Under the pieces are notes generated by a model. That model was not told the DNA's origin. It searched no databases and saw nothing but the letters and a program-made list of their open reading frames with translations. The position numbers and the translations under genes were made by a program. This document shows positions 22,548-24,801 of a stretch of DNA of 32,722 nt, piece by piece (within the stretch, counting starts at the first letter, position 1; the number at the start of each line of letters is the position of its first letter). Source of the stretch: Euryarchaeota archaeon RBG_19FT_COMBO_69_17 (GTDB lineage Archaea; Thermoplasmatota; Thermoplasmata; RBG-16-68-12); assembly GCA_001800825.1 (NCBI GenBank), contig MGWD01000047.1:7600-40321 (forward strand), written 5' to 3'.

Positions 22548-22607
22548 TTGAGAGTGCGTTCGACACGGGTCGGAGGACTTATCCGGACCGGTCTGATACC
22601 GCGGGCG

Positions 22608-23663
22608 TTGCTCGATGAGGCGGCCGTCGCGCGGGTCGATCGGGGCGGCCTGCGAGACATCATCGCCTCCATGCCGGACCAGCTCCTCGACGGGTTCCGC
22701 CTAGGGACGGGGACCCACGCGGACACATCGAAGGCGGAGCGGGTGTTCCTCGCGGGGATGGGGGGCTCCGCGATTGCGGGGGACATCTTCCGCTCATGGG
22801 CGACGAACCGCGCCCGCCTGCCGATCCAGGTCGTCCGGGACTACCGCCTACCGTCCTACGCGACGCCGGGGGACGTCCTCGTGGCCGTGAGCTACTCCGG
22901 GACGACGGAGGAGACCCTCGCCGCGACGGCCCAGGCCGTGAAACTCGGGTGCCGGATCGTCGCGGTCACGTCGGGCGGGCGCCTCGCAGCTCTCGTCCAG
23001 GAGGCGGGCGGGCCGACGATCCGGGTGCCCCCGGGCCTTCCGCCCCGAGGCGCGTTCGGCCTCCTCTTCGGAATCCTCGCGGCCGTCGGGGAGGAGTGGG
23101 TCTACGGGGACCTCCGCGGGGAGCTCGAGCGGGCCGTCGTGCACCTCAAGGACCTCCGCGGGCGGCTCGGGCCGTCCGTCCCCCTCGCGACGAACCGCGC
23201 GAAGGCCCTCGCGAAACGGCTCCGGAACCGCACCCCCGTCGTCTATGCGGCGCCGCCCCTCACGGCCGTCGCGAAGCGGTGGCAGACCCAGCTCAACGAG
23301 AACGCGAAGGTCCTCGCCTTCGCGTCCGAGTTCCCCGAGGCGGACCACAACGAGATCGTCGGCTGGTGCTCGGACGCCTCCGCCCGCCGGTTCGTCCCGA
23401 TCATGTTGCGGGACGCGGACGAGACCCCGGAGATGCGGCACCGCCTCGACGTGACGGAGGGGCTCGTCGGACGGCACGCGCGCGTGGACCGGATCGAGGA
23501 CGACGATGACGAGCTCCTCGGGCGGCTCCTCGGCCTCCTGTTCCTCGGGGACTACGTGAGCCTGTACCTCGCGGCCCTCCGCGGGGTCGACCCGACACCC
23601 GTCAAGGCGATCGACGAGCTCAAGGCCCGGCTCGCGGCCCCCGCTCGCCGAAGAAAAAAATGA
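22608..23663 (+). CDS. Bifunctional phosphoglucose/phosphomannose isomerase; TTG start proposed (ORF open from 22548)
   Basis: RVFLAGMGGSAIAGDIFRSW...VSYSGTTEETLAATAQAVKLGCRIVAVTSGG...RWQTQLNENAKVLAFASEFPEADHNEIVGW. Confidence 0.92.
   Translation: MLDEAAVARVDRGGLRDIIASMPDQLLDGFRLGTGTHADTSKAERVFLAGMGGSAIAGDIFRSWATNRARLPIQVVRDYRLPSYATPGDVLVAVSYSGTTEETLAATAQAVKLGCRIVAVTSGGRLAALVQEAGGPTIRVPPGLPPRGAFGLLFGILAAVGEEWVYGDLRGELERAVVHLKDLRGRLGPSVPLATNRAKALAKRLRNRTPVVYAAPPLTAVAKRWQTQLNENAKVLAFASEFPEADHNEIVGWCSDASARRFVPIMLRDADETPEMRHRLDVTEGLVGRHARVDRIEDDDDELLGRLLGLLFLGDYVSLYLAALRGVDPTPVKAIDELKARLAAPARRRKK
23653..23660 (-). terminator. Oligo-T terminator for the tRNA-Ser gene
   Basis: Minus strand ...CCTCGGCGTTCATTTTTTTCTTCGG: T7 immediately 3' of the tRNA. 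Confidence 0.65.
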
Positions 23664-23664
23664 A

Positions 23665-23783
23665 CGCCGAGGGGGAGATTTTCAGGCAGCCGTCGCCCGA
23701 GCGGCGGGAGCCATTTGAACTCCCGAGGCCTTGCGGCCACCAGCTCTCCAGGCTGGCGCCCTACCGGACTAGGCGACCTCGGC
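23665..23783 (-). tRNA. tRNA-Ser(GGA), interrupted by a 35-nt intron in the T-loop (59/60)
   Basis: GCCGAGG TC GCC-TAGTCCGGTAG-GGC G CCAGC-CTGGAGA-GCTGG TGGCCGCAAGGCCTC GGGAG-TTCAAA[intron]T-CTCCC CCTCGGC G; 7-bp acceptor and 5-bp T-stem pair perfectly only after intron removal. Confidence 0.93.
23679..23713 (-). other. Non-canonical tRNA intron: TGGCTCCCGCCGCTCGGGCGACGGCTGCCTGAAAA
   Basis: Bulge-helix-bulge: GGGAG-UUCA-AAU-GGC... pairs with ...GCC-UGAA-AAU-CUCCC (4-bp central helix UUCA/UGAA, two 3-nt AAU bulges). Confidence 0.88.
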
Positions 23784-23813
23784 ACCCAGCGCGCGAGCGA
23801 TGGGCTCCGTCGG

Positions 23814-23819
23814 TATAAA
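23814..23819 (-). promoter_or_regulatory. TATA box for tRNA-Ser
   Basis: Minus strand CCTTTATACCG about 31 bp upstream of the tRNA 5' end. Confidence 0.7.
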
Positions 23820-23847
23820 GGTTCCCGGGCGACCCCCCGGGCGCGCG

Positions 23848-24801
23848 TCACTTCCAGAGCTTCGGGTACGTCCCGGGTTCCATGAGGACCCGCGACGTTT
23901 CCACGGCGACCCCGGACTTCGCGATGACGATCTCGTCCGACGTCAGGGCGGCCTTCCCGAAGAGGACGGCCTCGCCCTTCGCGGTGAACACCCCGACGAC
24001 CTGGCCCCGCCTGACGTGGGGATCGAGCTTCGCGACGCCGGGCACGGCGAGATGGGCCCCATGGGAGAGAGCGTCCACGGCCGTGTCCTTGACGATGATC
24101 CGGGGGAGGTGCGCGAGGAGGGACTCCTGGGGCCGGAGGACCCGGATGAGGGGGCCCTCGTCGCCCTCCTTCCGGTACTCGAGGGCGTCCCGGAACGCGT
24201 TGAGGGGGAGGGCGTCCGACTCCGCGAAGGACGCCGTGCGGGTGCGGCGCAGGTCGACCATGTTCGCCCCCACGCCCAGGGCCTCCCCGACGTCCGCGCA
24301 CAGGGTACGGATGTACGTGCCCGACTCGCAGCGAACCCGAAAGAGCACGTTCCGCCCGTCGACCTCGAAGGCCTCGAAGGCGTAGACGTGGCGGGCCCGT
24401 TGCTCTCGCTTGACCGCGGACCGGACGGGCGGGATCTGGTAGATCTCCCCGACGAAGCGGGCGATCATGGACCGGATCCTCCGCTCGTCGACGTCCTGGT
24501 GGAGCTGCATCACGCCGACGTACTCCTTGTCCCCCTCGAGCACGGCCTCGAGGCCGCGGGTCGCGTCCGCGAGGGCCACGGGGAGGACCCCCGTGACCCG
24601 CGGGTCGAGGGTCCCCGAATGGCCCGCCCGCGGGACGCCGAACATGTCGCGGACCCACGCGCTGACCTGGTGGGACGTCGGGCCCTGGGGCTTGTCGACG
24701 ACGGCGACCCCGAGGCGGATCCGGTCCTCGACGGACCGATCCTCGGGCCTCCGTCCGTGTTTCGACTCCGGCGTGTCATGCAGGACGACGAGGTCGCTCA
24801 T
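23848..24801 (-). CDS. cbf5: tRNA/rRNA pseudouridine synthase Cbf5 (archaeal TruB/dyskerin) with PUA domain
   Basis: VVDKPQGPTSHQVSAWVRDMFGVPRAGHSGTLDPRVTGVLPVAL...KEYVGVMQLHQDVDE...IYQIPPVRSAVKREQRARHVY...RCESGTYIRTLCADVGEALG. Confidence 0.96.
   Translation of the reverse strand: MSDLVVLHDTPESKHGRRPEDRSVEDRIRLGVAVVDKPQGPTSHQVSAWVRDMFGVPRAGHSGTLDPRVTGVLPVALADATRGLEAVLEGDKEYVGVMQLHQDVDERRIRSMIARFVGEIYQIPPVRSAVKREQRARHVYAFEAFEVDGRNVLFRVRCESGTYIRTLCADVGEALGVGANMVDLRRTRTASFAESDALPLNAFRDALEYRKEGDEGPLIRVLRPQESLLAHLPRIIVKDTAVDALSHGAHLAVPGVAKLDPHVRRGQVVGVFTAKGEAVLFGKAALTSDEIVIAKSGVAVETSRVLMEPGTYPKLWK

Follow-up and report, generated by a model that had tools for sequence, protein, structure and literature searches.

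Position 59/60 is a listed non-canonical site of tRNA introns and is abundantly occupied in Thermoproteales; known non-canonical introns with a bulge-helix-bulge (BHB) motif range from 11 to 129 nt, and several can occur in one tRNA (PMC4090602). Reviews state that splicing endonucleases (EndA) of the alpha'2 type process BHBs only at the canonical position (PMC4090602, PMC4033280, PMC6379350). Archaea with alpha4 or alpha'2 EndA are likewise reviewed as carrying canonical-position introns only, the loops of other EndA types being used to explain intron diversity. Non-canonical introns have been described as a nearly exclusive feature of Crenarchaea, three euryarchaeal methanogens being the exceptions (PMC3218864), and Asgard archaea have later been added to their carriers (PMC11291895). 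Thermoplasmatota are described in reviews with only single introns at 37/38, and no description of non-canonical tRNA introns in Thermoplasmatota was found in the accessible literature; tRNA databases and most subscription papers, which may list such introns, lay outside the scope of this search.

The window (the whole 32,722-nt stretch of DNA analyzed here) encodes on its minus strand, at 23783–23665, a tRNA-Ser(GGA) interrupted at 59/60 by a 35-nt intron. The original prediction had placed the intron at 23713–23679, and its coordinates, boundaries and numbering were all upheld, with comparative tests in agreement. Exon 1 (23714–23783, 70 nt) extends from the acceptor 5' strand (23783–23777) through the D-arm, the anticodon arm with anticodon GGA (23749–23747), the variable arm and the T-stem 5' strand GGGAG (23724–23720) to the T-loop residues UUCAAA (23719–23714). 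The intron (23679–23713), delimited by a strict BHB and by comparison with relatives, precedes exon 2 (23665–23678, 14 nt), which starts at U60 and contributes the T-stem 3' strand CUCCC (23677–23673), the acceptor 3' strand CCUCGGC (23672–23666) and the discriminator G73 (23665). The minus strand reads GCCGAGG...GGGAGUUCAAA, followed by the 35 nt and UCUCCCCCUCGGCG, and the predicted spliced junction is GGGAGUUCAAAUCUCCCCCUCGGC, joining GGGAGUUCAAA to UCUCCCCCUCGGC. The 59/60 numbering is correct, with U54 U55 C56 A57 A58 A59 before the intron and U60 after it, and the 84-mer left after intron removal forms a complete class II cloverleaf (acceptor 7/7, T-stem 5/5, 7-nt T-loop UUCAAAU). ARAGORN and Rfam both call tRNA-Ser(GGA) here, and both force a wrong 3' end on it (30.8 bits).

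The BHB claimed for the junctions proved to be strict. The T-stem (5/5) forms the outer helix, UUCA (23716–23719) and UGAA (23681–23684) form a 4-bp central helix, and GGC (23710–23712) pairs with GCC (23687–23685) in a 3-bp inner helix. Two 3-nt AAU bulges flank the central helix, with cuts predicted after the second A of each, between 23714 and 23713 in the 5' bulge (23715–23713) and between 23679 and 23678 in the 3' bulge (23680–23678). Shuffling the intron produced a strict BHB in only 128 of 200,000 trials (6e-4). In the minimum free energy structure of the unspliced transcript the acceptor and T-stem strands are already paired around the intron, and the whole-transcript fold is only modestly better than those of shuffles (z = -1.71). 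The intron also contains a CUCCC (23706–23710) that offers the T-stem strand GGGAG an alternative partner and is the decoy taken by ARAGORN. It is kept in 9/9 species with the T-loop-intron tRNA-Ser(GGA), and the predicted ensemble in some sister species prefers it over exon 2 (0.61 vs 0.27 in G016), so that the transcript may have to refold or be assisted by protein; in these folding models it may act as a competitor, vying with exon 2 for the T-stem. A mature 3' end formed through the intron CUCCC was rejected, since the T-loop would be 9 nt and the acceptor stem broken. The G024 intron has an equivalent element, ACUCC.

Upstream of the gene lies a TATA-box-like CTTTATACC (23812–23820, minus strand), whose CTTTA core is present in 9/9 aligned species and to which general knowledge of archaeal promoters would assign a promoter role. 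A T-tract (23654–23660, minus strand) just 3' of the gene likely serves as an archaeal terminator. The upstream neighbor is a TruB/Cbf5-like pseudouridine synthase ORF (23848–24801, minus strand) and the convergent neighbor a SIS-domain sugar isomerase-like ORF (22548–23663, plus strand), both names being read from sequence. These two ORFs were used as locus markers in relatives, and the SIS protein also for tree inference.

The EndA architecture, which the original prediction had proposed to inspect, turned out to be of the alpha'2 type and to lack the particular loops associated with broad-specificity EndAs. A single EndA gene is present, a 478-codon open frame with two fused PF01974 repeats, and no further PF01974 match or separate beta subunit gene was found in this genome. 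The protein matches A. fulgidus EndA (1r0v/2gjw) over its full length, and the Tyr/His/Lys triad is intact in its C-terminal repeat (GFKYG..., QHAKYLVH, HGVKKQ). With the Crenarchaea-specific loop (CSL) of A. pernix EndA and the CSL-grafted construct 3p1y as loop references, no Crenarchaea- or ARMAN-specific loop (ASL) was detected, there being no insertion between the FYG-like and LSLLE motifs of the catalytic unit; the alignment at the loop site is ungapped against 1r0v and 2gjw and requires gaps against 3p1z and 3p1y. By these sequence criteria the enzyme is an alpha'2 EndA without CSL or ASL. The fused two-repeat EndA also occurs in 25 other genomes of the class, and no loop insertion was seen in the 24 closely alignable class EndAs sampled; the EndA of G068 is divergent and Thermoplasma-like. 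The ligase RtcB is encoded in this genome as well.

Taken with the anatomy of the gene, these components suggest a route to the mature tRNA. The precursor would be transcribed with its intron, the acceptor stem and T-stem forming around it, and the T-loop UUCA would pair with UGAA at the intron 3' end to give the strict BHB. The alpha'2-type EndA would cleave each bulge behind its second base, leaving RtcB to join the exons into the 84-nt tRNA. Recognition by EndA would be set by the BHB motif and not by its position in the tRNA, which is plausible given that the homodimeric EndA of Ferroplasma acidarmanus (Thermoplasmatota) removes a BHB intron inserted into a non-tRNA hairpin (PMC8707768). 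An alpha'2 EndA can probably handle 59/60 introns because the T-stem and T-loop provide ready-made BHB halves, and the strict BHB of this tRNA requires no new enzyme property. We infer, with a probability of about 0.94, that the locus is the cell's single functional tRNA-Ser(GGA) and that its 59/60 intron is excised by the alpha'2 EndA and the exons joined by RtcB.

The best of the competing explanations, itself very improbable, holds that the gene is decaying, its 3' end broken by an insertion while another copy serves the cell. The low score and wrong 3' end returned by standard finders would fit such a pseudogene, but tRNA searches of this genome, which is 94% complete, identified one tRNA-Ser(GGA) only. 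The original prediction had named an intronless Ser(GGA) gene elsewhere as the sign of a decaying copy, and no second intact or intronless one was found in this genome. The same searches recovered 38 other tRNAs above the family cut-off, the remaining Ser genes being GCT, TGA and CGA. They found no Trp or Pro(CGG) gene and no complete Gln(CUG) gene in this genome, and these three may be interrupted. The same gene and intron recur in eight further species of the genus, all genomes compared being metagenome bins. Among the nine species, exon 2 is invariant (mean pairwise difference 0.000), exon 1 differs by 0.032, the intron by 0.137 and the flanks by 0.34–0.42, a strong constraint on the exons that speaks against decay. 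Single copy number and exon constraint in nine species together argue that, on comparative grounds, this is a real functional gene, reflecting neither decay nor assembly error.

Decay of T-loop-intron copies has nevertheless occurred in some sister species, which lends the pseudogene explanation a measure of support. A Ser(GGA) motif search returned exactly one gene in 18 of 19 genus genomes; in the 19th (G007) the motif differs and a T-loop-intron Ser(GGA) gene is present. Nine of the 19 genomes carry the T-loop-intron gene and ten a different tRNA body with a 37/38 intron, yet both types share the locus, adjoining the SIS gene and/or TruB, and the tree of the neighboring SIS protein requires at least four switches between them. 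Fossils of the T-loop-intron gene were identified in five of the ten genomes with the 37/38 type: a 5' fossil in four (G006, G011, G012 and G013) and, in G014, a 47-nt stretch of intron and exon 2 that is 94% identical and has its T-stem changed to CTCAC. The T-loop-intron gene was thus seen in decay only where a substitute Ser(GGA) occupies the locus, which again disfavors decay here.

Loci across the genus, among them L066, L070, L071, L075 and L076 (the last in G014), present a picture of repeated replacement of the T-loop-intron gene by the 37/38-intron gene, with 5' or 3' fossils left behind. Two further ideas about the intron were considered. In this genome it resembles exon 2, and the idea that it arose when the tRNA 3' end was duplicated in tandem is left open at best, because the acceptor-like part is missing from the introns of sister species. 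A box C/D-like motif (UGAUGA...CUGA), noted by eye in the introns of some species, was discarded as too short and not conserved in this genome.

Even less probable is that the insert stays in the mature tRNA, unspliced, as an enlarged T-loop. Splicing being itself deduced, and the acceptor and T-stems being able to form with the insert in place, the idea deserves consideration, but it leaves unexplained why the insert bears exactly the EndA motif, and with 42 nt in the T-loop the D-loop/T-loop elbow would be lost. Near relatives, moreover, provide exact empty sites. The last 29–30 nt of the spliced tRNA-Ser(GGA) are identical to those of intronless Ser(GGA) genes in genomes of related families (for example G030, G025, G029, G052 and G039), and in such orthologues with identical 3' end the 35-nt insert is missing precisely at the 59/60 bond. 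Pairing in the introns of other families also argues against an unspliced insert. In other class members, 90 distinct T-loop introns of 34 nt show compensatory covariation in the inner helix: one of its pairs is formed in 89%, by five pair types, whereas shuffling leaves 43%. The fourth central-helix pair is A-G in 86 of these 90, leaving a 3-bp helix and a mismatch, and the same imperfect BHB is found in two tRNAs of this genome.

A scan of the genome's other tRNAs for atypical introns, suggested with the original prediction, showed the intron to be no one-off. Using a T-loop BHB search with calls confirmed by full T-stem and acceptor pairing, we found 59/60 introns also in the initiator Met, a GGGCCCG-type CAU tRNA, Lys(CUU) and Lys(UUU). 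The initiator Met gene (contig C47, near 42300–42440, about 2 kb past the window end on the same contig) has a 32-nt T-loop intron with an imperfect BHB and, by reading, a 37/38 intron. Lys(CUU) likewise carries, by reading, a 37/38 intron besides that at 59/60; its T-loop intron is present in 4 species, with an exact empty site at 59/60 in 13. For the GGGCCCG-type CAU tRNA the 59/60 intron was found in 14, and three sister-genus genomes encode the same mature sequence without this intron. Lys(UUU) (contig C25, 33445–33609) apparently has three introns, in the D-loop, at 37/38 and in the T-loop, and this arrangement is also seen in G003 and the sister-genus genome G019. That the whole structure arose by faulty assembly or binning of a single metagenome, as a fragmented bin with an estimated contamination of 6.4% might suggest, can be dismissed for practical purposes, since it recurs in eight other genus assemblies, including soil MAGs EA_24 and EA_5, at the same locus where checked, and the four further tRNAs, spread over three other contigs and the present one, carry the same intron kind.

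Beyond this genome, Leu(UAA) genes with 28–31-nt T-loop introns were found in G019 and G016, and the class includes at least eight families in which the tRNA-Ser T-loop BHB is recognizable. In public genomes, the tRNA-Ser form turned up in far more than 100 contigs, almost all of which bear the label Thermoplasmata or Euryarchaeota archaeon, with a few Woesearchaeota; the matches include Candidatus Lutacidiplasma silvani and Methanomassiliicoccales bins. A class-wide pattern count of 146 among 400 genomes includes false positives (for example intronless genes with a chance CTCCC behind them) and is not a prevalence. Woesearchaeota tRNA-Ser genes with T-loop introns were noted at four loci, and in some of them the anticodon arm apparently holds another intron. 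Other tRNA loci of the present genome are also irregular: tRNA-Pro(GGG) (C43, 5942–6625), misread by ARAGORN, has a probable D-loop intron of ~34 nt, a 3' part of tRNA-Gln(CUG) directly follows a RelE-like ORF (C14, 13967–14621), and a 3' fragment of tRNA-Thr(GGU) lies on C42 (3327–3987). The Gln(CUG) and Thr(GGU) pieces are possibly split, truncated or integration-scar tRNAs.

The spliced-intron reading thus identifies a known kind of intron in an unexpected lineage, where it belongs to a set of 59/60 introns. The original prediction had considered the position unusual for Thermoplasmatota, and this assessment stands: against the reviews, T-loop introns occur in Ser, Lys, Met-type and Leu tRNAs of a class with plain alpha'2 EndAs. 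The coevolution model of EndA and introns becomes directly testable in this class, and the A-G mismatched BHBs are where enzyme tolerance would matter. A tentative and rather doubtful extension is that the EndAs of the class gained tolerance for other positions and imperfect BHBs by a route without CSL or ASL, which, if true, would break the accepted link between loops and intron diversity. T-loop-intron genes are misread or missed by ARAGORN and the general tRNA model, which makes the tRNA complement of these genomes appear incomplete.

Compared with known 59/60 BHB introns, the tRNA-Ser(GGA) intron is alike in position and motif, and its 35 nt fall within the known length range, whereas its host is a member of the Thermoplasmatota with an alpha'2 EndA lacking CSL and ASL; the groups known to be rich in non-canonical introns mostly have (alpha-beta)2 or epsilon2 EndAs with specific loops. 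It has the BHB motif and the EndA/RtcB pathway in common with canonical 37/38 introns, but its outer helix is the T-stem and not the anticodon arm, and its central helix derives from the conserved T-loop UUCR. Multi-intron or non-canonical tRNAs outside Thermoproteota are also known from Methanopyrus kandleri, Methanothermobacter and Korarchaeum (PMC4033280, PMC6379350); M. kandleri EndA, however, is (alpha-beta)2, and the alpha2 EndA of Korarchaeum has a CSL-like loop that the enzyme described here lacks. The tRNA-Thr(GGU) locus of Caldiarchaeum subterraneum (PMC3293823) is similar in having alternative intron forms within a close group and fragments of the old gene nearby, whereas the alternative found here has a tRNA body of its own and a 37/38 intron, and occupies the same locus in ten species.
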